Below, one piece after another: positions 7,168-58,709 of a stretch of DNA of 64,000 bases (position 1 is the first letter of the stretch; each line of letters opens with the position of its first letter). This DNA comes from an uncultured Armatimonadota bacterium (GTDB taxonomy: Bacteria > Armatimonadota > Fimbriimonadia > Fimbriimonadales > Fimbriimonadaceae): the NCBI GenBank assembly GCA_903899015.1, contig CAIUHP010000045.1:112538-176537 (forward strand), read 5' to 3'. The position numbers were made by a program, and so were the translations under genes. The notes beneath the pieces were generated by a model. The model saw only the letters and a list, made by a program, of their open reading frames with translations. It was not told the DNA's origin and made no database searches.

Positions 7168-9492
7168 GTGATTGGTTTGGGACTCATCGTTGCTTCTCTC
7201 ATCGTGCCTCGGGAAATCGCTCGTCTGAAAGCGGGAGAGTTCGTAGCAAGTTTTAATTCAACTGGTTCTGTTGAATCTCTTCTTATCGGCGATCATTCCA
7301 ATCTCATTCCATCAGGTCGTCCCTCGCCTCTAATCTCACTTAAAGTAGACGGCAAGATTCTTCTTCCAAAAGCTGCTGAATACGACTCGAAATCGCAGAA
7401 CTTTCAGATTGACTTTGAAGGACATCGAGCCCAAGTTCGAACGAATGTTTTCTCTTCTCACCTTTCCTTCGAGCTAAAAGAGGTCCGCCCTTCGAAGGAT
7501 GTTGAGTTGGTCATTTGGGGACCATTTCCTTCGACCCTAAAAGAGTCGGTTGGCGAGACGATCGGTGTGGTCCAAGGTCAGGGGCTTGCTTTTGGGATAC
7601 AAGTTTTGAACGCAAAGACCCTTGGAGGATTCCCAAATACCGAAGATGATATTGAGCCTTCTTACGATATTTTTGAGACTGGCAACCTAGTCGATATGAA
7701 CGATAAGGACGCCGCGACCGAGAACTATCGTGGCGATACCGCAAGACCGACCGAATTCGGTTCCGTGGTCCAAGCCTATACCCGTAACCGTTCGAGGACT
7801 CGAGTGATTGAAAACTGGGGACACAAGCACTACACGGCTCCCGCCTATCGTGATGGAGGAGTGACCGGTAGCAAGATTGCCCTATTCGGGTGCCAAGCTT
7901 CCGAAGCCCTCGAAACAATTGGGCGAATCGAAATTCAGGAAGGTTTGCCTCACCCAATAATGGATGGGGTTTGGGGGAAGACAAGTCCGACTGCTCACGA
8001 ATCCTATCTTGTTATGGGATACGACTCGAAGAACCTTGATGAATGTCTTGCGATCACCAAGGCCGCGGGCTTGCGCTACTTGTATACCGATGGTGGTTTC
8101 GAGTCATGGGGGCACTTCAAACTCGACCCAAAGGGCTTCCCGAACAACTGGCAGAGCATGAAGGAATGCGTTGAACGAGCCAAGAAGCAGGGCATTCGAA
8201 TTGGAATCCACACTCTTTCGAACTTTATCACCACCAATGACGCATATGTCACTCCGGTGCCTGACCGCCGACTTGCTGAAGTCGGGGCCAGTAAGTTAGT
8301 CGGTGCGATCAACTCGACCCAAACTGAGATTGGCATTCAAGATCCAATGTTCTTCAATCAAATGTCGAACAACACACTACGAACCGTTCGGATTGACGAC
8401 GAGCTGATTCAATACGACTCCGTCTCTGAAAGTAGTCCTTGGACACTTCATAAGTGCACTCGGGGAGCGTTTGGAACAAAATCATCCGACCATCGCTCTG
8501 GCGTTAGGATTGCTAAGCTCATGGATCATGGCTACAAGACTTTCTTGACGAATGCGGATCTCACAAAGGAGGTCGCTCGCAATATCGCCCACCTCTTCAA
8601 CGCAACCGGGATGCGGCAGGTATCTATGGATGGACTGGAGGGTAACTGGTCAACTGGGATGGGCCAGTATGGGCGCGCCCTATTTGCTGAGACGCTCTTC
8701 GATAATCTGTCGCCTGAGTTAAGAGGAGAAGTGATTAACGATGCCAGTAATCCTGGAGCGTTCAACTGGCACTTCAACACCCGAATGAATTGGGGCGAGC
8801 CATGGTATGCAGGTTTTCGAAAGAGTCAAACACTTTACCGCCTCAAAAATCAGCATTACTTTAAGAGGAATCTGATGCCTGGAATGCTTGGCTGGTTCCA
8901 GTTGACCTCCGAGACTACTCTTGAAGACATCCAGTGGTTGCTTGCGAGGGCCGCTGGTTTCGACGCTGGTTTTTGTATTACTGCAAGTCTGGATTCTATT
9001 CACAAGAACCCGAACCTCAAGGAAATACTTGGAGCGGTCAAAGCTTGGGAATCTGCAAGACGAGCTCATGCGTTTCCTGCCCATCTTGCTAGCGGGTTGC
9101 AGGACATTAATCGTGAATTCGAATTAAGCCAAGAATTCGAAAAAACGTGGTCCATTACTGAGATTCGATCAACCAAGTTTGCCGTCGGAACGGGTGTTAA
9201 AGAATTGCCGTTCGAAATGGGCGAATGGCCCGCAGGAGCGAAGTTAATTCTCCAAGTCCAAAAGGGTGGTGAGCTTGCTGATGGCACCGTCGAAGTCGAT
9301 GGCACTCCCGTTTGGAATCATCAAGGAAGAGCGATCCATGGCTATCAACACTTAGTTGTGGACCTGTCCAAGCTAAAACCAGGTTCTCACCGCCTCAAAT
9401 TTACGGACAAGTTTACGGGTGAAAAGGGAGTTTCTATCGATGGCGAAGTCCGCGTTGCACTGGGTGAAGCTCAGCCACTTCATGCTCGGTGA
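7168..9492 (+). CDS. Secreted glycoside-hydrolase-like protein (TIM barrel, clan GH-D-like)
   Basis: 774 residues beginning at a GTG preceded by AAGGTGG, with a short hydrophobic leader. A beta-rich N-terminal domain (to about 280) precedes a barrel. LRYLYTDGGFESWG places Asp308 at the end of a strand, and RQVSMDGLEGNW places Asp488 similarly. Paired aspartates of this kind suggest the nucleophile and acid of alpha-galactosidase-like clan GH-D enzymes (inference by pattern). A C-terminal beta-sandwich follows from about 680. The sulfatase gene starts 40 bp downstream on the same strand, so the two probably act on one glycan. The exact family and substrate are unknown. Confidence 0.65.
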   Translation: MIGLGLIVASLIVPREIARLKAGEFVASFNSTGSVESLLIGDHSNLIPSGRPSPLISLKVDGKILLPKAAEYDSKSQNFQIDFEGHRAQVRTNVFSSHLSFELKEVRPSKDVELVIWGPFPSTLKESVGETIGVVQGQGLAFGIQVLNAKTLGGFPNTEDDIEPSYDIFETGNLVDMNDKDAATENYRGDTARPTEFGSVVQAYTRNRSRTRVIENWGHKHYTAPAYRDGGVTGSKIALFGCQASEALETIGRIEIQEGLPHPIMDGVWGKTSPTAHESYLVMGYDSKNLDECLAITKAAGLRYLYTDGGFESWGHFKLDPKGFPNNWQSMKECVERAKKQGIRIGIHTLSNFITTNDAYVTPVPDRRLAEVGASKLVGAINSTQTEIGIQDPMFFNQMSNNTLRTVRIDDELIQYDSVSESSPWTLHKCTRGAFGTKSSDHRSGVRIAKLMDHGYKTFLTNADLTKEVARNIAHLFNATGMRQVSMDGLEGNWSTGMGQYGRALFAETLFDNLSPELRGEVINDASNPGAFNWHFNTRMNWGEPWYAGFRKSQTLYRLKNQHYFKRNLMPGMLGWFQLTSETTLEDIQWLLARAAGFDAGFCITASLDSIHKNPNLKEILGAVKAWESARRAHAFPAHLASGLQDINREFELSQEFEKTWSITEIRSTKFAVGTGVKELPFEMGEWPAGAKLILQVQKGGELADGTVEVDGTPVWNHQGRAIHGYQHLVVDLSKLKPGSHRLKFTDKFTGEKGVSIDGEVRVALGEAQPLHAR

Positions 9493-43349: not shown

Positions 43350-44569
43350 ACTAACCTCCGCTCAACTACTCCGACTGGGTCGAATTTTCGGAAGCGAAGG
43401 ATGACCGTGAAGGACGCGACCACCAAAATGCAGAAGGGGATCGGAATCGTATAGGCGTAAGCTTGGCGATCAAATACGTCGATGAAGAACGCCTTGGGTT
43501 GCATAAGTACCACGTTCGCCACATTTAAAAGGCCGTACGTGCATATCAAACCAAGAACCCACCCTAAAGTGATGACAGCTGCCGATTCGGCCAATACTCG
43601 TTGGAGCAACTGCTTTTTCGTATATCCGATCGCTTGAAGTAGTCCGAACTCCACCAGACGTTGGGTCTGGTAAATATTCATCAGCATTCCCATCATGAAT
43701 GTGATCACAATCGCCAATGCTCCGATAACGACATTCAAGATCATGTAGAGCGTTGCGAACATCTCTCGCGTGCTCTTCTCAATCTGAAAATAAGCGAAGA
43801 TGACCGGTCGCTGGCCCTTGAATTTATCAACCACCCAATGGTCCAACTTATTCTGGTCGGTTGAGTTTTTAGCGAAGATTAAAGCGTCATCGATGCGCGG
43901 AAAGTAGTTGTCTCGCTGAAATTCAATCGAGTCGATCATGTACCAACGCTCCGTTTCAGCTATTCCGACAACTTTGACCGGTACGGGCGCGTAGTTTTCG
44001 ATGTCGTCCGGCTTTAAGATCGTGGACCCAATTTTAAGATTTAGGTTCTTTGCGACAGGGCGACTGATCAGTGCCTCGGGTGCGCCTGGATTGGGATACC
44101 GCCCCTCAATCTTCTTCGTCATCTGGCGGGCAGCGTAGTATCGCATGTCGTCTTGGGTCAGGCCAAGCATGATAAAGGGCCATTTCCCGACGATGCTCTT
44201 TACTAATGAACTGCTAGCCCGACAAATGATGATTTTGTCCAACGGCACCGGAGACTTCCGCTTGACGGTCTCGACCAAGCCAGGAAGCAGACTTGGGTCG
44301 CCTCTTGGTGTAATCCCGGTCTCCTCCTTTGCGTAACTGTATACATTTCGTATCGAGTACGGTATCGAGTCAATCATCGCGATGATTCCCGATACGAGCA
44401 TGACCGCCAAAACGATGACCGCGGTAAGCGGAATCGTTTTGCCTGCATTTCTTAGCAGGTATGTGGTTGGCGCGAGCGGACGCAGAATACGACGCTGTTT
44501 GGCTGCCTTTACCGAAGGTTTACTTGGCGATTTCAGATCGGTCCCTTCGGTATCGGATAAAGATTTCAT
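43346..44569 (-). CDS. ABC transporter permease (FtsX/MacB type)
   Basis: 407 residues with a basic cytoplasmic N-terminus, one helix (about 45-68), a large periplasmic domain, and three C-terminal helices (about 275-300, 325-350, 375-395), the FtsX/MacB layout. IYQTQRLVEFGLLQAIGYTKKQL is the conserved coupling-helix region. It pairs with the ATPase overlapping its stop. Its annotated ATG lies 50 nt inside the end of the preceding DsbA-RibD gene, so the three genes may be one transcript. Substrate unknown. Confidence 0.88.
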   Translation of the reverse strand: MKSLSDTEGTDLKSPSKPSVKAAKQRRILRPLAPTTYLLRNAGKTIPLTAVIVLAVMLVSGIIAMIDSIPYSIRNVYSYAKEETGITPRGDPSLLPGLVETVKRKSPVPLDKIIICRASSSLVKSIVGKWPFIMLGLTQDDMRYYAARQMTKKIEGRYPNPGAPEALISRPVAKNLNLKIGSTILKPDDIENYAPVPVKVVGIAETERWYMIDSIEFQRDNYFPRIDDALIFAKNSTDQNKLDHWVVDKFKGQRPVIFAYFQIEKSTREMFATLYMILNVVIGALAIVITFMMGMLMNIYQTQRLVEFGLLQAIGYTKKQLLQRVLAESAAVITLGWVLGLICTYGLLNVANVVLMQPKAFFIDVFDRQAYAYTIPIPFCILVVASFTVILRFRKFDPVGVVERRLV

Positions 44570-45800
44570 TGCTTATCGTATGGCTCTCAACGAGGTTGTA
44601 TTGTTGCAGACTTTCTCTCGCCAAGGCTTCGCCATCGGCGTATGTCGGCACATCTCGTCCCAATTTCACTCGCGGAGCGATCGTGATAAACAATTCGTCG
44701 ACCAAATTGGCCCGAATTAACTGAGCATTTAATTCACTGCCGCCCAATATTAAAAGCTTTTCAATCCCTAATTCGCTCCTCAAACGCTCAAACAACCGAG
44801 GGAAATCCACTTCATCGTCTCCACAGTGCATGACATGAACGCCATTTCCCGGTTGGATGTCAGAAGAGAAAGGAGCGACGACGTAGGAGTCGCCTCCTTG
44901 GAAAAATCCTGAATCGAAGGGAAGGTTTCCCGATTTTGAAACGACTAGCCGAATGGGAGCGGCTGGTTTCCATGTTCCGGGACATGCTCTAAGCGTCTGG
45001 GCACCGATGATAATTGCGTCGGCAGATTGCTCAAGGCGCTTCATCAACAAGTGATCGGTGCTTGAACCCAAATCCAGGACACTCTCGTCTCGACTTCCGC
45101 TAAGAATCTTGCCATCAATGGTGGTGACCATGTTGATGTAAGCGTATGGACGCTTTTCAGCAGGTGTAGGAAATTCGAGGTCGGTATAGACATCGAGGTT
45201 CGTTTTCTCCAGCTCGCCTTTGATGGCTGTTCTTAGAACGCTCAACGGCTGTTCTGCATAGCGTTCAGAGCCGATAAAGAAGGTTGGAACGTTGTAGACA
45301 CCCTTGGAATAGGCTTCGTCGTCGAATCCCACGACTTTATCTTTGAACTGCTTGGTCTCAACTGCGACTCGGAGAGCATTCAAGTCCGCGACGATCCCCT
45401 CAGCCAACTTGAGGATCGTGTCTATTTCGTTGATATTCTCGCCTCGAAGCCAGAGTGCTTTGTAGAACTCCTCTATGAGCTGATTTCCAACACCCACCGA
45501 CTTCGCGTATTCCGCCGCTTGGTGAGCGTTGTACGTCCTCATTTTCTTGGGGCGAGGAACCTTTGGCATCTCAATGCCATCTGCGTTCAACAGAAACTCA
45601 AATCTCGAAAGGGTTTGGGGCTTATTGGGCAAAACTGCCGACTTAGCGTAATCCGGCCATTCCAGTTCTTCTGGGAAAAGTTCGTAGCCAAGCCAATCGA
45701 ACACGATATCGAACTCAAGTTCGAGCCTCTTAGCCTGGAGGATGCCTACCCAACACCAAGGGCAAATGAAGTCGTGAGCGACAGGTATGGTTAGTTTCAT
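44520..45800 (-). CDS. Fusion of DsbA/FrnE-like thioredoxin-fold domain and RibD C-terminal reductase domain
   Basis: 426 residues. The first 205 form a FrnE/2-hydroxychromene-isomerase-like DsbA module: HDFICPWCWVG (Cys13, Cys16), an all-helical insert, and NVPTFFIG with the cis-proline. From about 215 a RibD-C/dihydrofolate-reductase-like module follows: PYAYINMVTTIDGKIL, DAIIIGAQTLRACPG, RLVVSKSG, EKLLILGGSELNAQLI and VDELFITIAP. The first half would handle thiols, the second NADPH-dependent reduction of a pterin- or flavin-like substrate. The fusion suggests the two activities are coupled (inference). The ATG is 6 nt after TAAATT. Confidence 0.85.
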   Translation of the reverse strand: MKLTIPVAHDFICPWCWVGILQAKRLELEFDIVFDWLGYELFPEELEWPDYAKSAVLPNKPQTLSRFEFLLNADGIEMPKVPRPKKMRTYNAHQAAEYAKSVGVGNQLIEEFYKALWLRGENINEIDTILKLAEGIVADLNALRVAVETKQFKDKVVGFDDEAYSKGVYNVPTFFIGSERYAEQPLSVLRTAIKGELEKTNLDVYTDLEFPTPAEKRPYAYINMVTTIDGKILSGSRDESVLDLGSSTDHLLMKRLEQSADAIIIGAQTLRACPGTWKPAAPIRLVVSKSGNLPFDSGFFQGGDSYVVAPFSSDIQPGNGVHVMHCGDDEVDFPRLFERLRSELGIEKLLILGGSELNAQLIRANLVDELFITIAPRVKLGRDVPTYADGEALARESLQQYNLVESHTISNEIFIRYRRDRSEIAK

Positions 45801-51661: not shown

Positions 51662-52659
51662 GTGATTACGACTACAACCTCCCCGATGAGCTGATTGCTC
51701 AGACACCGCTACTTCAAAGGGAAGAATCCCGACTACTTTGGCTTCAAAAGAGCGGGGAAGTACATCATCGACAATTTCGAGATGTTCTGGATTTGCTCCA
51801 TCCCGGAGATCTACTGGTGATGAACGACACTCGGGTGTCGGCAGTAAGACTCAACGGGTTCAAGGGAACGGGTGCTGCCATCGAAGCACTATTGCTCAGC
51901 GAAGTTTCCCCCCACTTGTTTGAGGCACTTGTGAAGCCCGGCAAGAGGATGAAGCCGGGTGCGGTCGCTGATTTTGGGAATGGCTTGGTAGCAACCGTCC
52001 GAGCGGATCTTGATGACGGTCTGAAATTACTGGAATTTGAACCGCTGGAGAATCTGAACGAAAAACTGCAAGAAGTCGGCCAAATTCCCTTGCCACCCTA
52101 CATTCACGCCGTGCTGAGCGACAGCGAGCGTTACCAAACCGTTTACGGTCGAGCAAATGGGAGTGCGGCAGCGCCAACGGCGGGGCTCCATTTCACTCCC
52201 GAAATCCTAGAGGCTCTAACATCGAAAGGAGTTGAGATAGGGAACGTCACTTTGCACGTTGGACTCGACACTTTTAGGCCTGTACAGTCTGAAAATCTGA
52301 ATGAGCATCGAATGCATGGCGAGACTTGCATTCTTCCTCCTGAGACCGAGGAGAAAATTCATCGAGCAACCGGACGAATCATTGCGGTGGGGACAACCAC
52401 CGTTCGAACTCTCGAGTCTTTCGCAATCGGAAGGCGACGAGTTCAATCCGGAAGTATGGAATCAAGGCTATTCATTCGACCTGGCTTTGAGTTTCGAGTG
52501 ATCGATGGAATGTTTACGAATTTTCACCTGCCCAAAACAACGATGCTCATGATGATCTCTGCGTTGGCAGGCAAGGATAATATTTTCTCCGCCTATAATC
52601 AAGCGGTAGAAAATCAATACCGATTCCTCAGTTTCGGGGATTCGATGCTGATTTTATGA
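51649..52659 (+). CDS. queA: S-adenosylmethionine:tRNA ribosyltransferase-isomerase
   Basis: 336 residues, normal QueA length. LSDYDYNLPDELIAQTPL is the family opening; LLVMNDTRVSAVRL, PLPPYIH, AAPTAGLHFTPE, VTLHVGLDTFRPV and MFTNFHLPKTTMLMM are conserved. It transfers and isomerises ribose from SAM onto preQ1 in tRNA to form epoxyqueuosine. The TTG start overlaps the HAD gene by 13 bp. No other queuosine genes are in the window. Confidence 0.95.
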   Translation: MDRLSDYDYNLPDELIAQTPLLQREESRLLWLQKSGEVHHRQFRDVLDLLHPGDLLVMNDTRVSAVRLNGFKGTGAAIEALLLSEVSPHLFEALVKPGKRMKPGAVADFGNGLVATVRADLDDGLKLLEFEPLENLNEKLQEVGQIPLPPYIHAVLSDSERYQTVYGRANGSAAAPTAGLHFTPEILEALTSKGVEIGNVTLHVGLDTFRPVQSENLNEHRMHGETCILPPETEEKIHRATGRIIAVGTTTVRTLESFAIGRRRVQSGSMESRLFIRPGFEFRVIDGMFTNFHLPKTTMLMMISALAGKDNIFSAYNQAVENQYRFLSFGDSMLIL

Positions 52660-52834
52660 TTCTTATATTTGGCTTGGCGACCGAATGTGACATGACTTGC
52701 ATGTTCGATCGGCGAATAAATACTTCATTGGATTCCGAAGTATCGAAGGGACAAATGAACTCGCTGGATGGCAACATCAGGAAGTGCGGGAAAAATGGAA
52801 GTTTTTTACCCTTCTCTTGGCTCAATCCATTAAG

Positions 52835-52840
52835 TACAAT
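52835..52840 (+). promoter_or_regulatory. Candidate -10 box for the gene at 52846
   Basis: TACAAT, 5 nt before the TTG at 52846. Confidence 0.35.
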
Positions 52841-52845
52841 GCCTT

Positions 52846-53451
52846 TTGCCACTGAGAGAGGACATGGGGTTGAGAACGACTAATTTTGATGCGCTTGCCT
52901 ATATCGAGAATGCGTTCCTCGACCAAAAACACGAAGACGCTAAGTCCGATAAAGATTTAGAGGGCGAGTTAGGCATCGATGTCCCATCCATCGGAGACTA
53001 CATTGGTGGTCGCTCGGGCGGATCCAGTGCGCCCGCCGGTCCGAAGACGAAGTTCAAAAAGACCGTGATGAGCGCTCCGCGCCCCCGACGAAGTGGAACT
53101 CAGCAGAAGCTTTTACCCAAGACGCAAATCGACCCTGAGTTGCAGAGCGTTTGGATGGCCCTACCCAAGAATGTCGAATTCCTGTGTAGCTTTTATGACG
53201 ACTCCGTGACCGCGAATTACTATCGGGGAGAGTTTAAGGAAACTCGTCAAGACCTCATCAAGCGGTTGCTCGATCCCGAACTCTCGCTCGAAGAGACGAG
53301 CCGATTGCTGGGTGTGTGTCCGGCAACTGTTCGAAGATATACGAATCGAGGTTGGCTGGCACATCATCGCACGGTCGGTGGACAACGCCGATTTAGTCTG
53401 AGCGATGTCGTTAAGTTCGTTGAAGAGCACGGACGTTTCCCAGAGGTTTGA
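52846..53451 (+). CDS. Protein with C-terminal MerR-like helix-turn-helix
   Basis: 201 residues. The N-terminal 90 residues are low complexity (acidic, then Gly/Ser/Pro/Lys-rich) and probably disordered. The middle is helical. The C-terminal 65 hold a MerR/excisionase-type motif: LSLEETSRLLGVCPATVRRY, then TVGGQRRFSLSDVVKFVEE. It probably binds DNA, but no dimerisation helix or effector domain is visible. The TTG at 52846 fits the nearby -10-like box; an ATG at 52864 after GAGAGG is an alternative. The next gene overlaps by TTGA. Confidence 0.75.
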   Translation: MPLREDMGLRTTNFDALAYIENAFLDQKHEDAKSDKDLEGELGIDVPSIGDYIGGRSGGSSAPAGPKTKFKKTVMSAPRPRRSGTQQKLLPKTQIDPELQSVWMALPKNVEFLCSFYDDSVTANYYRGEFKETRQDLIKRLLDPELSLEETSRLLGVCPATVRRYTNRGWLAHHRTVGGQRRFSLSDVVKFVEEHGRFPEV

Positions 53452-54644
53452 CATTGGGCAATGATCGCCTCAGGGTTGCGATCTTCTCCGATAGCGCCTT
53501 ACCCATCCTCAATGGGGTAAGCGTCAGCATTGACGGCTTGGTTGCTGAACTTCGAAACCAGGGGCATTCGGTCCACATCTTTACCGCACGCTATCCTGGC
53601 TACGCCGATCCTGATCCCAACACCTATCGCTTTCGAGCCATTGAAACGCCGATTTCACGTGGCTATCCCGTCTCCTATCCGCCTTTTTATCGCATGCTAC
53701 AAAAGTTTAGGAGGCATGAGTTTGACGTCATTCATACTCACACGCCTTTTATGCTTGGCATGGTCGGTTTTCGCTGGGGGGAGTCTCACGGCATTCCGGT
53801 AGTGTCCACCTATCACACTTTGTATGACCGCTACGCGCACTACTTTAAGCTCTTGCCGTATCGCTATATTCGGTTCAGGATCGCAAAACACACCAACTTC
53901 TATTACAACCGGATGGACCATGTAATCACGCCTTCTGAGGCATCTCTCAAGTGGCTCCGGAGACATTCGGTTCATTCTCCCGTTACGGTCATCCCAACTG
54001 GAATACCCAGCCCCCAAATGCTGTCTCGGAGTGAGGCGAGGCAATCGCTGAATATTGCTCCCGAGAACAAAATCATGCTTTATGTGGGACGGCTTGCTAT
54101 TGAGAAGAACCTTGGCGTTCTCCTTGAAATGGCCGCTGAAGCATTCGCCCAGGATCTTAATTTGAGGTTATGGCTCGTGGGTGACGGACCGGCTCGTGGC
54201 GAATGCCTGCGGATGGCCCGTTCGCTGGGAATCGGAGATCGAGTCAGATTTGTGGGTTTTGTCCCCCGTGCAGAGGTTGATCGCTATTACGCAGCCTCAG
54301 ATCTCTTTGTGTTCTCTTCCATTACCGAAACTCAGGGACTTGTGGTCCAAGAGGCAATGTCGTATGGTTTACCAGCGATTGCGGTAAGTGGTGGTGGTGC
54401 TAGCGCCGCGATTGTTGATGGGCTAAATGGATTTGTGGTGAAGAACGATCCTTCCGATTTTGCCCAAGTGACACTCAAGGTCCTATCGACGGATGGGCTC
54501 TATGCGCGATTGAGTGAGCAAGCAATTCATTCTGTTCGCAGTCAGGGTGTCTCGCAAATGTGCCAGGATGTTGTTTCGGTTTATCGACAGGTAATGCAAT
54601 CGAAGAAGGAGGAAGCAGACTATGGAAGCTACGCAAGGGTCTAA
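53448..54644 (+). CDS. GT4-family glycosyltransferase
   Basis: 398 residues. The N-terminal lobe is a Rossmann-like acceptor domain (RVAIFSDSALPILNGVS with the Gly loop, DVIHTHTPF). The C-terminal lobe binds the sugar nucleotide: MLYVGRLAIEKNL, VRFVGFVPRAEVD, and the EX7E pair in SSITETQGLVVQEAMSYGLP. It is close to alpha-glucosyl- or mannosyl-diacylglycerol and phosphatidyl-myo-inositol mannosyltransferases. It is the middle of three overlapping or adjacent genes, before the presenilin-like membrane protein. Confidence 0.92.
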   Translation: MTLGNDRLRVAIFSDSALPILNGVSVSIDGLVAELRNQGHSVHIFTARYPGYADPDPNTYRFRAIETPISRGYPVSYPPFYRMLQKFRRHEFDVIHTHTPFMLGMVGFRWGESHGIPVVSTYHTLYDRYAHYFKLLPYRYIRFRIAKHTNFYYNRMDHVITPSEASLKWLRRHSVHSPVTVIPTGIPSPQMLSRSEARQSLNIAPENKIMLYVGRLAIEKNLGVLLEMAAEAFAQDLNLRLWLVGDGPARGECLRMARSLGIGDRVRFVGFVPRAEVDRYYAASDLFVFSSITETQGLVVQEAMSYGLPAIAVSGGGASAAIVDGLNGFVVKNDPSDFAQVTLKVLSTDGLYARLSEQAIHSVRSQGVSQMCQDVVSVYRQVMQSKKEEADYGSYARV

Positions 54645-55545
54645 ACGCGGCATACCCATCTTCTTTATCTGCATCCTCTTTTTAGGCGTTTTACGCGTGT
54701 TCCTTCAGCGCCTTGAATTTCCTTTGGGTGTCGTGCCCATCGCGAATGTTCTCATGTGCGAGATTTTTTTGGGCATTCCTTTGTTGGCTCTGTGCTATGC
54801 CGCCAAGGATGAGTGGACACCAAAAACGGCCTTGATGTTTCTCGTCGGTGGAGTGTTCACCCAACTCATATGCGTTTATCTCACCAAACGTGTTTTGCAT
54901 GGACCCAACGTCACTGCTGACATTGTCAATGCGATTGGCCAAGTTGGCCTTCCGGTTTGGTGCGTTGGCCTTGGAGCGCTACTAGCGACCCTCATCAAAG
55001 ACAAAAATCTCGTTGTCCCCATCGCGATTTTTCTTGCCTGCTTTGATATGTTTCTGGTGTTTAGCCCGTACGGCGTGACTCAAATGGTCATCAAGCAGAT
55101 GCCCTCTGTGTTGCCTGCGATTGGTGCCGCGATTCCCGTTGCCTCGGCAACCAACCCGACCACCGGACGTGTAGCGGCTGGATCATTTGCAGGTCCCGCC
55201 GATTTTATGTTTCTCGCGATGTTTATGATCGCGCTCTTTCGGTTCAATCTGCAAGCAAGACGGACGGTTATGGTCGTCATTCCGACGCTGCTTTTTTACA
55301 TGCTCATCGTTGGCTTATTCCACTGGGCGCTTCCGGCGTTGTTGCCCATCGGAGCATGTGTTCTCATTGTCAATTGGAAGTCGTTCAACCTTTCCAAGGA
55401 CGAGAAGATTTCAACTGCTCTCGTTGCCGCTTTAGGGATTGGCCTTTTTACGTGGGGAATGTTCCAGAAGCCGAAAGTTGTGCCAGTTGACCCTTGGAAT
55501 ACGGGGAACGTCCGAAAAGCTTCAGAATCTCCAAACTCGCGGTAG
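54622..55545 (+). CDS. Presenilin/signal-peptide-peptidase-like intramembrane aspartyl protease (candidate)
   Basis: 307 residues with about nine hydrophobic segments. Three motifs occur in the order and spacing of family A22 proteases. A membrane helix ends FLACFDMFLVFSP (Asp142, compare YD of presenilin/SPP). A later helix starts GPADFMFLAMFMIALF (Asp194, compare GxGD). The helix after that holds WALPALLPIG (PAL, 238-240). The interval of 52 residues between aspartates is like that in SPP and archaeal homologues, and the length is near that of archaeal PSH. GxGD is GPAD here, so activity must be tested. GGAGG lies 9 nt before the ATG, within the end of the GT4 gene. Confidence 0.65.
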   Translation: MEATQGSKRGIPIFFICILFLGVLRVFLQRLEFPLGVVPIANVLMCEIFLGIPLLALCYAAKDEWTPKTALMFLVGGVFTQLICVYLTKRVLHGPNVTADIVNAIGQVGLPVWCVGLGALLATLIKDKNLVVPIAIFLACFDMFLVFSPYGVTQMVIKQMPSVLPAIGAAIPVASATNPTTGRVAAGSFAGPADFMFLAMFMIALFRFNLQARRTVMVVIPTLLFYMLIVGLFHWALPALLPIGACVLIVNWKSFNLSKDEKISTALVAALGIGLFTWGMFQKPKVVPVDPWNTGNVRKASESPNSR

Positions 55546-56359
55546 CAAGGCGGTCCAACGCGACTCCGTGGCGGAATCCCTCTCGATTGAGAAGGTAGAC
55601 AAGGTCTTCGGTAGCTAAGTTTCCAGTGGCTCCAGGAGCATAAGGACAACCACCAAGACCTCCCGCACTGGAATCAAAAGCTCGGATCCCAAGTTCCAAC
55701 GCTTTCGAGACGTTTGCAACCGCTGTTCCATGCGTGTCGTGAAAGTGATAAGCAAATTTCTCGATGGGAATAACTTCAAGAAGTGTGTTCGTGAGGGAAT
55801 GTACTTCGCTTGGGCCAGCGACCCCGATGGTGTCTCCGATGCTTATGTCATCCACGCCCATTTCGAGAAGCTTCATTGAGACTTCGCGAACCGCCGATGG
55901 AGCGACAAGCCCGGCAAACGGACATTCGAAGGCGGTGCTGACATATCCACGGACCCAACCACCTGGCACTTGCGCCCTGAATTCTTCGATGACGGCTCGA
56001 AATGCTTCTAAAGACTCTTCGACCGACATGTTAATGTTCTTGCGCGTAAATGCGTCACTAGCCGCCGTAAACACCGCAATCCGTTTGACACCGACCACAA
56101 TGGCTCGTTCAAGTCCCTTGGCGTTCGGTACGAGCGCGCTAAAGAGAGGCGAAGAAGGCAGGTGAGGCCAAAGCTCGGCCGCATCTCCAAGTTGAGGAAC
56201 CCATTTAGGTGAAACAAAGCTTGTTGCTTCAATTTCGTTGAGACCCGCATCCGCCAACGCTTGAATAAAGCGAAGTTTTACGTCCGTCGGAATCGGTAGT
56301 TTCTCATTTTGGAGGCCATCACGCGGGCCAACATCGATGATTCGTACCTGATCACTCAC
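55448..56359 (-). CDS. HMG-CoA lyase-like enzyme
   Basis: 303 residues. The opening VRIIDVGPRDGLQNEK is the HMG-CoA-lyase/DRE-TIM signature. ATSFVSPKWVPQ, VSTAFECPF, GDTIGVAGP, FHDTHGTAVAN (metal His) and GGLGGCPYAPGATGN with the flexible catalytic cysteine loop complete it. It should cleave HMG-CoA or a related acyl-CoA to acetyl-CoA plus a ketone, as in leucine breakdown. It is last in a four-gene minus-strand operon. Its 3' end overlaps the convergent presenilin-like gene by 98 bp. Confidence 0.92.
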   Translation of the reverse strand: MSDQVRIIDVGPRDGLQNEKLPIPTDVKLRFIQALADAGLNEIEATSFVSPKWVPQLGDAAELWPHLPSSPLFSALVPNAKGLERAIVVGVKRIAVFTAASDAFTRKNINMSVEESLEAFRAVIEEFRAQVPGGWVRGYVSTAFECPFAGLVAPSAVREVSMKLLEMGVDDISIGDTIGVAGPSEVHSLTNTLLEVIPIEKFAYHFHDTHGTAVANVSKALELGIRAFDSSAGGLGGCPYAPGATGNLATEDLVYLLNREGFRHGVALDRLATASLEILKLFGRSPYSKGQLAQLSASGTFPT

Positions 56360-56798
56360 CGAGGACTCCTGCGGCCGTCACGACGGCGAGAACCGAACCA
56401 TCCGTAACTTGATCGCCCTTCGAAACCGAAATTTGAGTCACCGTGCCATCGAAGGGAGCGTTGAACGGCTGTTGTGTCTTCATCGCTTCCAAGACGAGAA
56501 TGGTTTCCCCTTTCTTGATTGCATCGCCGACCTGACGACGAACATCCACAATAAGCCCAGGCATGGGAGCACGTAGCTCACCCGAACCAACATGTGATGA
56601 AACTCGGGCCCGGTTCTGACGTTCTTCGACCTGAAATTGTCGACCCTTGTAGGAGACATGGGTCACATCGCCGACTCGAACCGCAACTGCGGTAAACGTA
56701 CCTTCTGGAGTGCGAACGTAAAGACGATCTCCAAGTCGAGTGATCTCGGCTCCGTCGTCTTGAAGTTCGACCTCGTCTCCGTTGACGAAGCGTTTCAT
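56352..56798 (-). CDS. Biotin carboxyl carrier-type protein
   Basis: 148 residues. The C-terminal 75 form a biotinyl domain with Lys107 in LVLEAMKTQQ and APMPGLIVDVRRQVGD. The N-terminal half is a beta-rich segment typical of acyl-CoA carboxylase biotin-carrier subunits. It would carry biotin for a carboxylase of the 3-methylcrotonyl- or propionyl-CoA class, but no biotin carboxylase or carboxyltransferase gene is in the window. Its start overlaps the C26 gene stop by 4 bp and its end overlaps the HMG-lyase-like gene by 8 bp. Confidence 0.9.
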   Translation of the reverse strand: MKRFVNGDEVELQDDGAEITRLGDRLYVRTPEGTFTAVAVRVGDVTHVSYKGRQFQVEERQNRARVSSHVGSGELRAPMPGLIVDVRRQVGDAIKKGETILVLEAMKTQQPFNAPFDGTVTQISVSKGDQVTDGSVLAVVTAAGVLGE

Positions 56799-57514
56799 TT
56801 GTTGACCGTTTGTTTTCTCTCGGCGTACTCCGAGGCTGCTTTGATGAATTGAGCGAAGAGATTCTGAGTTGCCGCACTTTCGAGAGTGCGTTCAGGATGC
56901 CACTGAACTCCGATCATCCAAGGATGGTCGTTTGCTTCAATGGCCTCAACTGTTCCATCCTCTGAGTGCGAGACGATGGTTAATCCTTGACCCAAGTCTT
57001 TCACCGCCTGGTGGTGGTAACTCTTACCAACTACCTTTGACTCCCCAATTAACTGATGCAGATGAGATCCTTCGTCAATCTGATATTCCTGCATGGTTCC
57101 TCCGGTATGGGAGGAATGTCCAACAACGTCGGGTAAGTGCTGGATGAGTGTTCCACCCCGCGTTACGTTGATAAATTGGCATCCATAGCAAATCCCAAAT
57201 ACGGGAAGATCGGGATTTACCTCAGAGAGAAGTTGCTGCTCAGCAGCAAATCGAGCTGGATCTTGCAACGAAACTTTGGGGTGGTTCTCTTCGCCAAATT
57301 GAGCCGCATCGATATCGTCACCGCCGGGAATAAGCCATCCGTGAATCATCTCAGCTACCACAGACATATCTGCCGTCGGAGGGATCAGAATCGGCACGCC
57401 ACCCGCGTCTGAAATGCTTTGGGCGTAATTCCAATTGAGTTCCAGTTTCCCGCGCGTTCGCACATCTTCTGGATCGTGTTGACAATCGATGGTTATTCCA
57501 ATGATCGGTTTCAT
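56795..57514 (-). CDS. Gamma-glutamyl (GABA) hydrolase-like class I amidotransferase (C26)
   Basis: 239 residues. The nucleophile Cys109 is in FGICYGCQF and the catalytic His-Glu pair in IGVQWHPE. The start KPIIGITIDC and LIPGGDDID are as in PuuD/YvdE-like proteins. It may hydrolyse gamma-glutamyl-GABA or a related gamma-glutamyl amide; with speD/speE elsewhere in the window polyamine breakdown is one option (inference). It is second in the operon, 19 bp after the E2 stop. Confidence 0.9.
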   Translation of the reverse strand: MKPIIGITIDCQHDPEDVRTRGKLELNWNYAQSISDAGGVPILIPPTADMSVVAEMIHGWLIPGGDDIDAAQFGEENHPKVSLQDPARFAAEQQLLSEVNPDLPVFGICYGCQFINVTRGGTLIQHLPDVVGHSSHTGGTMQEYQIDEGSHLHQLIGESKVVGKSYHHQAVKDLGQGLTIVSHSEDGTVEAIEANDHPWMIGVQWHPERTLESAATQNLFAQFIKAASEYAERKQTVNK

Positions 57515-57533
57515 ATCGCAAAGGTTTCTGATT

Positions 57534-58709
57534 CTACGCGTTAATCAGGCTCATCATCGATTCGACCTTCTCTTTGACGGCGTTCAGGAATTCGGCTGCT
57601 CCAACTCCGTTGATCAAGCGATGGTCGAAGGTGAGCGCGACATTTGCCGTCATTTGAAGCTTGAGTTCAAGACTGTGAGAATCGAGCGCATTATGAACCG
57701 CGCCTAAGAAAAGGGTAGCCACGGCCGGCGATACCACGACCGGGATGGCATCGAGAATGCCAAAACTCTGCATGTTAGTTAAAGAAATGGATACTGATTC
57801 GTTGGCCTGATCTTTACCTTCTCGAGCCAACTTGATCTGCTCGCGGGCTTTATCGGCAAATTCGTGCCAAGTCAAAGTATCAGCATCAGGAACGACTGCA
57901 ATGACCAGTTCATCACCCGGATTGCTGACCGCGATGCCAAGTTGAACGTGATGGTAAGTTCGAACCGTATCGTCTCCCACCAGGGTCGAGCGGAACATTG
58001 GGAAGTCCTTCAGCGCTTGCGTCACGGCATAAGCAAACATGGTGAATGCACTCGGCTGGAAAGCATCACCAGAAGCTTTCATACGTGTTCGGCAATGGTC
58101 AATCGAACTCCAATTGACGGCGACACTCATCGTTCCGGGAACCACGAGTTGAGCGCCTCGTACTAACCTTGAAGCCAGCAATCTCTGCTTCGGTGCCTGA
58201 GGTGCCTCGGAATAAGGTTTTGCGACGCTCGGTGTCGATGCTCCTCCGGTAGCTAGAAAAGCATCAATATCAGCAGGCATGAGCTTAGCGGTTCCTGCGG
58301 CGAGTGTTGTTAACTGAGTGTCCGTGAGCCCTTTCTCTTTCGCGCACGCCCGAGTGCGTGGTGAAATGTTGAACCCTCGCGTTCCGTTAGAGTTGCCTTC
58401 TTCAACCTTGGGCTCCACAGAAGCGGCTTGCGTTGGAGCTCCGTGCACAACCATTTCTTGAACGTCTCCTTGAACTTCCATCTGCGCCACTTCGGCACCA
58501 ATGGCAAGGATTTCATCCGGCTGAGCAAGCCAAGAGACTAACACACCGTCGTATGGCGATTCCACATCCATGACCGCTTTATCGGTTTCCATCTGATAGA
58601 TGGGTTCGTCACGTTTGATGGTGTCGCCTGGTTGCTTGAGAACAGCGACGAGTCGGGCTTCTTGGAGCCCTTCTCCGATCTGGGGTATGCGTACAGAAAT
58701 AACTGGCAT
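57534..58709 (-). CDS. 2-oxo acid dehydrogenase E2 (dihydrolipoyl acyltransferase)
   Basis: 391 residues. An N-terminal lipoyl domain (Lys44 in METDKAVMD), a peripheral-subunit-binding domain (ISPRTRACAKEKGL) and a catalytic domain (about 175-391) are present. The catalytic motif reads TFDHRLINGVGAAEF: the His is kept but the usual Asp of HRxxDG is Asn. It could be the core of a pyruvate or branched-chain complex; the operon with an HMG-lyase-like enzyme favours branched-chain acids (inference). E1 and E3 are not in the window. The leader holds a hairpin at 58719-58738. Confidence 0.88.
   Translation of the reverse strand: MPVISVRIPQIGEGLQEARLVAVLKQPGDTIKRDEPIYQMETDKAVMDVESPYDGVLVSWLAQPDEILAIGAEVAQMEVQGDVQEMVVHGAPTQAASVEPKVEEGNSNGTRGFNISPRTRACAKEKGLTDTQLTTLAAGTAKLMPADIDAFLATGGASTPSVAKPYSEAPQAPKQRLLASRLVRGAQLVVPGTMSVAVNWSSIDHCRTRMKASGDAFQPSAFTMFAYAVTQALKDFPMFRSTLVGDDTVRTYHHVQLGIAVSNPGDELVIAVVPDADTLTWHEFADKAREQIKLAREGKDQANESVSISLTNMQSFGILDAIPVVVSPAVATLFLGAVHNALDSHSLELKLQMTANVALTFDHRLINGVGAAEFLNAVKEKVESMMSLINA

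Follow-up and report, generated by a model that had tools for sequence, protein, structure and literature searches.

A predicted presenilin/signal peptide peptidase-like intramembrane protease family found across the bacterial phylum Armatimonadota

The stretch of DNA analyzed here (the window) comprises 64,000 nucleotides of contig CAIUHP010000045.1 from an uncultured Armatimonadota bacterium of the family Fimbriimonadaceae. The gene under study, P0001, lies in its second half and encodes a protein of 307 amino acids, which we regard with good confidence as an intramembrane aspartyl protease of the presenilin/signal peptide peptidase (SPP) kind, with Asp142 and Asp194 as the predicted catalytic pair within the membrane. 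The features of the gene are as follows:

54622..55545, + strand: predicted presenilin/SPP-like intramembrane aspartyl protease gene (P0001, 307 amino acids), from the open frame, family alignment and AlphaFold
54606..54612, + strand: Shine-Dalgarno-like AAGGAGG inside the upstream GT4 glycosyltransferase gene, nine bases before the P0001 ATG, read by eye
55003..55062, + strand: helix 128-147 with the FD motif and predicted catalytic Asp142, from alignment and AlphaFold
55126..55191, + strand: predicted beta hairpin (strands 169-175 and 182-190) just ahead of the helix of the second Asp, from AlphaFold
55192..55242, + strand: GPAD motif and helix 192-207 with predicted catalytic Asp194, from alignment and AlphaFold
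55333..55371, + strand: PAL motif (238-240) and the helix 240-250 that starts from it, from alignment and AlphaFold

Translation places F141-D142, G191-P192-A193-D194 and P238-A239-L240 where the original prediction, made from the DNA letters alone, had put the FD, GPAD and PAL motifs of a multi-spanning protein. The AlphaFold model of P0001 (predicted local distance difference test score 88.4; predicted template modelling score 0.84) has nine helices, and the motifs fall in three of them: helix 128-147 holds Asp142, helix 192-207 holds Asp194 and helix 240-250 is headed by PAL. The ATG lies within the glycosyltransferase open reading frame (ORF, 53448-54644), and the overlap that had been noted between the two genes amounts to the first 23 bases of P0001. 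The window's genome holds a single copy of the gene.

A presenilin-type fold of the catalytic core was found in the predicted models. In a structure comparison of two separately predicted models, the best VIA-align matches were all chains of presenilin, SPPL2a and the archaeal protease PSH. P0001 also shares with peptidase family A22 an Asp in each of two consecutive predicted helices and a PAL that heads a later helix.

P0001 belongs to a large family. A protein search with it, which scored the 7,999 candidates having the most words in common, gave at least 136 relatives (E ≤ 0.01), 120 of them listed; an organism was named for three of these (Fimbriimonas, Fimbriimonadaceae and Armatimonadetes), all annotated as "hypothetical protein". 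Three profiles were used for the family: A1, built from P0001 and 70 of the 120 listed relatives (71 sequences); A2, from a 40-member set of more distant relatives; and A4, from 61 members of the wide family. A further 40 loci (L086-L125) were taken from other families of Armatimonadota. The family was present (match at E ≤ 1e-4) in 182 of the 201 sampled Armatimonadota genomes, including 130 of 141 high-quality genomes and 116 of 121 genera, and thus comes near to being a core gene in Armatimonadota. No match was obtained for G184 or G188, which belong to the window's own family and are small (1.5 Mb).

The view beyond Armatimonadota was limited to what could be reached by protein searches that scored the 7,998-7,999 candidates sharing most words, and by a contig scan over 84,980 species whose patterns came from GPAD-type members and were hence biased to GPAD. 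That scan gave 53 loci, 50 with Armatimonadota-type names, two named "bacterium" and one (L007, JADZEW010000001.1) titled Methanoregulaceae archaeon. The L007 member nests within Fimbriimonadaceae on the tree and has a hydroxymethylglutaryl-CoA (HMG-CoA) lyase neighbor as in Fimbriimonadia, and PF06550, the family of PSH, had no match in the three genomes reached via L007, L016 and L025; L007 is therefore probably a mislabelled or mixed bin rather than an archaeal transfer. One record in the wider protein search bears the name Firmicutes. Another relative, P0321 (264 amino acids), is very divergent (E 1.8e-12 to profile A2), has GLGD and PAL, and may fall outside Armatimonadota. Scans of viral contigs revealed no relative of the family and none of PSH; a plasmid scan gave one haloarchaeal PSH relative, which was put to no further use.

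The predicted catalytic residues are strongly conserved. Among the invariant columns of A1 are Asp142 and Asp194 (both 71/71), Gly191, Pro238, Asn129 and Asn251. A wider count took in 124 matching ORFs at 123 loci, the window's own included and some rows being copies: Asp142 was Asp in all 122 covered rows, Asp194 and Gly191 were present in 124/124, Pro238 in 122/124 and Leu240 in 118/124. The same picture was obtained from the 110 distinct rows (Asp142 in 108/108 covered, Asp194 in 110, Pro238 in 108, Ala193 in 81 and Gly193 in 29). A regular expression for the motifs in hydrophobic context (D...G-x-A/G-D...P-x-L/M) picked out 78 of the 83 family ORFs and none of the 737 other ORFs (≥200 amino acids) from the same 94 loci. 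Only 19 of those 737 look multi-spanning, which makes this a small control for membrane proteins, and the pattern was written after the family had been seen.

Residue 193 varies: of the 124 rows, 95 have Ala and 29 have Gly there. Among 41 ORFs from the distant loci the proportions are reversed (Gly 29, Ala 12). Textbook GxGD thus exists within the family, whose Gly/Ala change is structured by clade, and the GPAD of P0001 represents one of the two states. The tree gave three changes at this position; it is a quick tree with several long branches, P0321 the longest, and the count is silent on direction and still compatible with a single change. At L101:4893-6773, in genome G065, a tandem pair of diverged family copies was observed, both with GxGD.

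Presenilin is known from research on Alzheimer's disease, and the presenilin-1 change G384A is a familial Alzheimer mutation. The GxAD of the family is the equivalent of that change, here a clade-structured variant. The relevant part of one account describes the Gly-to-Ala change at GxGD as slowing PSH, cutting production of Abeta40 by presenilin and having a similar effect in SPPL2b (PMC2947513). Ala193 likely makes the predicted P0001 enzyme slower or otherwise specific, not dead.

A different explanation of the same change is that P0001 is a catalytically silent relative, in which the fold was kept for binding or assembly, the aspartates serve to bind ions or protons, and Gly to Ala marks the loss of proteolysis in Fimbriimonadia. 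The prevalence of GxAD over GxGD, its clustering on the tree with three changes, and Glu261, a residue after the PAL helix that is as invariant as the aspartates (124/124 rows), would all suit such a loss, and no substrate is known for the family. However, both aspartates are invariant in the Ala clades too, the slowing of PSH by Gly to Ala stops short of abolishing its activity in the portion of PMC2947513 concerned, and, according to a passage in PMC4343526, activity assays led to the redefinition of PibD, an archaeal enzyme of the prepilin type, as GxHyD. We consider loss of catalysis unlikely and favor a working intramembrane protease.

The kinship of the family with presenilin and SPP by sequence search rests on its relatives. 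PF04258 (Peptidase_A22B), searched across the 201 Armatimonadota genomes, gave one match at E ≤ 0.01, at G159:C203:5489-5800, and this match was above the cut-off. It falls within a family member (G159:C203:5138-6031; 103.8 bits to profile A1), and hmmscan of that member's frame against PF04258 gave 24.5 bits (cut-off 23.3, E 2.5e-5). Profile A4, searched against 177,635 PDB sequences, had only two matches at E ≤ 10, SPPL2a (0.006) and presenilin-1 (0.083), with both alignments running from GxGD to PAL. PF01080 (Presenilin) was the Pfam family matched by the largest number of A1 members (5/71, best E 5.9e-4) and was also matched by 2 of the 40 members of the A2 set (best E 0.054), all of these below the curated cut-off; single A1 members matched unrelated families equally strongly (DUF2157, 1.1e-4; NnrS, 2.5e-4). 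A search of the window's genome with PF01080 gave 11 bits in another frame only and did not pick P0001.

Several results weigh against placing P0001 with presenilin and SPP. P0001 alone had no Pfam match at E ≤ 10, none in NCBIfam and no A22 chain in PDB, and no A22 chain was found in PDB searches with profile A1, profile A2 or the bridging member L127 alone. The Foldseek E-values of both models were weak. In hhalign comparisons with A3, a PSH profile made from 34 of 120 listed relatives and narrow (Neff 2.5), the probabilities were 0.1% for A1, 0.4% for A2 and 0.3% for A4; the pairing of Asp with Asp and GxGD with GxGD that A2 and A4 showed against A3 was not counted as evidence of kinship. 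In both models the first Asp is preceded by four of the nine helices and a single one comes after the helix of PAL, against five helices ahead of the first Asp in presenilin, SPP and PSH. Since P0001 has four helices there and GPAD in place of GxGD, it is not filed in A22, but it is predicted to work like an A22 enzyme. Of the presenilin/SPP pattern claimed at the outset, the motif order and the catalytic half thus stood, and the GxGD and a one-to-one correspondence with the nine helices of presenilin did not. The proposed profile check against A22 was similarly divided: P0001 itself drew no Pfam match and hhalign against PSH came back empty, but one relative passed the PF04258 cut-off and A4 found SPPL2a and presenilin-1. 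Overall, the presenilin/SPP reading is supported via the relatives and not via P0001 alone.

These negative searches and weak E-values are what would be expected if P0001 were some other membrane protein, a transporter or enzyme, whose Asp pair and Pro-x-Leu resemble presenilin by chance or convergence. That idea has to accommodate a member above the PF04258 cut-off, a wide profile whose sole PDB matches are SPPL2a and presenilin-1, in register, and two separately predicted models whose best VIA-align rows are all presenilin-type, and we judge it quite improbable. With regard to type IV prepilin peptidases (A24), no A24 family was present among the Pfam matches of P0001, of the 71 members (25 of 31 families listed) or of the 40 members, and the family's Asp residues are predicted inside helices, the A24 trait being Asp at the cytoplasmic face. 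We regard the family as a phylum-wide branch of GxGD-type intramembrane proteases in bacteria, one that is new as far as our searches show.

The orientation of the predicted protease in the membrane was considered through a charge count, in which Lys and Arg in the N terminus and loops 2, 4, 6 and 8 were compared with those in loops 1, 3, 5 and 7 of the nine predicted helices. The N-terminal side had the excess in 71/71 sequences (means 11.4 versus 4.7) with the C-terminal tail left out, and in 54/71, with 5 equal (means 11.4 versus 9.1), when the whole, poorly predicted tail was added to the second side. The N terminus is therefore likely inside and the loop between the Asp helices outside, which by established topology is the orientation of SPP. 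SPP and presenilin are described, in the part of PMC2947513 that treats them, as having opposite topologies and as acting on type II and type I substrates, respectively.

An active site oriented as described for SPP would make P0001 a cutter of type II (N-in) segments. The likeliest such segment would be the signal peptide that remains once signal peptidase has cut, or else another small membrane protein, and it would enter between the Asp helices. The hairpin ahead of the second Asp may then pair with the unwound end of the substrate, both aspartates would activate water, and the pieces would exit the membrane. A passage in PMC9282858 reports beta strands ahead of GxGD in PSH and gamma-secretase, with which the predicted hairpin of P0001 can be compared.

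SppA (S49) was found in 95 of the 201 Armatimonadota genomes and in only 1 of the 34 genomes of the window's family, 32 of which have the presenilin-like protein. The window's genome has no match for SppA and does match type I signal peptidase and M50 site-2-type proteases. Based on these data, we tentatively suggest that disposal of signal peptides and membrane stubs is the most likely function of the protein. An association of Ala193 with the absence of SppA seems strong when rows are counted (38 Ala rows without S49, 27 Gly rows with S49, 5 exceptions; n = 70) but is not claimed, as the rows are not independent of descent: there are at most three independent contrasts (one on starred branches) and the sign test gives p 1. 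A fuller scenario, which we put forward as a doubtful one, is that the whole phylum has its own ancient presenilin/SPP-type enzyme as an intramembrane signal peptide peptidase and that in Fimbriimonadaceae, where SppA was lost, it runs alone on a natural GxAD site, the equivalent of presenilin G384A.

The genes that adjoin P0001 in the window are:

53448..54644, + strand: GT4 glycosyltransferase, the overlapping upstream neighbor in Fimbriimonadia-type loci (Pfam PF13439, PF00534)
52846..53451, + strand: MerR/BldC-like helix-turn-helix regulator at position -2 (PF12728 7.6e-12; NF033787 below cut-off)
55448..56359, - strand: HMG-CoA lyase, convergent and not thought to be part of the system (PF00682; NF004283 above cut-off)

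Across the 94 loci, the Fimbriimonadia type of neighborhood has a GT4-cluster ORF at -1 (36 loci), a convergent HMG-CoA lyase at +1 (37) and a MerR/BldC-like gene at -2 (25). Elsewhere in Armatimonadota the genes often seen nearby are an ANTAR response regulator, divergent, at -1 (13 loci), together with a GAF histidine kinase at -2 (12 loci), and, downstream, leucyl-tRNA synthetase (LeuS) at +1 (13 loci); an SLBB-HHH (ComEA-like) protein occurs in 6 loci. All these counts are approximate, because the script misjudged the target in four loci (the GT4 ORF in L010, L036 and L051; the LeuS ORF in L093) and L052 and L112 are the same member with the same neighbors. There is no single conserved partner, so the enzyme likely acts alone. 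The link to envelope lipid or glycan biology that had been drawn through the GT4 gene proved weak, and that P0001 is a lipid or glycan pathway component working with this glycosyltransferase, its protease fold used otherwise, is very improbable: the 23-base overlap, the GT4 ORFs at -1 in 36/94 loci and a best NCBIfam model for the GT4 ORF of alpha-monoglucosyldiacylglycerol synthase (a glycolipid synthase; 156 bits, below the cut-off of 400) speak for it, but none of the 40 loci L086-L125 has a GT4-cluster ORF at -1, and in other Armatimonadota the ANTAR regulator, GAF histidine kinase and LeuS are common neighbors, so that the pairing is local.

In four loci (L094, L105, L108 and L122) a small same-strand ORF (114-185 amino acids, cluster 30) was observed directly upstream of the family gene. 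Rfam had no match in 52500-58000 of the window. At 44520-45800 (- strand), a 426-amino acid frame appears by eye to fuse a DsbA/FrnE-type thioredoxin domain to a RibD/DHFR-type reductase domain.

Proteases of the presenilin/SPP type have been regarded as belonging to eukaryotes and archaea (e.g., in the part of PMC2947513 that introduces them). A passage of one review mentions "the bacterial presenilin homologue" and names no organism there (PMC8396450), and no article describing a presenilin-type protease from Armatimonadota turned up in our search of the open-access literature. A near-universal branch in this phylum would shift the origin or spread of these proteases. The family would also offer compact bacterial models, likely with no need of a partner, along with many naturally occurring proteins that have Gly or Ala where presenilin has G384. 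The absence of SppA in the window's family opens a plain genetic test of whether the presenilin-like enzyme clears signal peptides.

The closest known systems to the family include SPP, presenilin and archaeal PSH (PF06550; Methanoculleus marisnigri, 4hyc, 4y6k). SppA, the usual bacterial signal peptide peptidase, resembles it in the proposed job of clearing signal peptide remnants; SppA is a serine enzyme of another fold. Presenilin (PF01080, A22A), the catalytic subunit of gamma-secretase, is the best structural match of both models, has a beta pair ahead of the second Asp and is aligned by A4 over the GxGD-to-PAL stretch. Unlike presenilin, the family has its Asp helices predicted in the opposite orientation and without a long loop between them, its neighborhoods hold no evident partner subunit, and beyond the matched range there is no correspondence between the helices of the two. 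With SPP and SPPL (PF04258, A22B in MEROPS; SPPL2a, 9k92/9k93), the family shares an Asp in each of two adjacent helices, PAL heading a later helix, GxGD in its distant members, a predicted outside loop between the Asp helices and one member that passes the PF04258 cut-off. It differs from them in the GPAD of P0001, in its helix layout (four ahead of the first Asp, one beyond the PAL helix), in an N terminus predicted inside, and in that only this one member in 201 genomes reaches PF04258.
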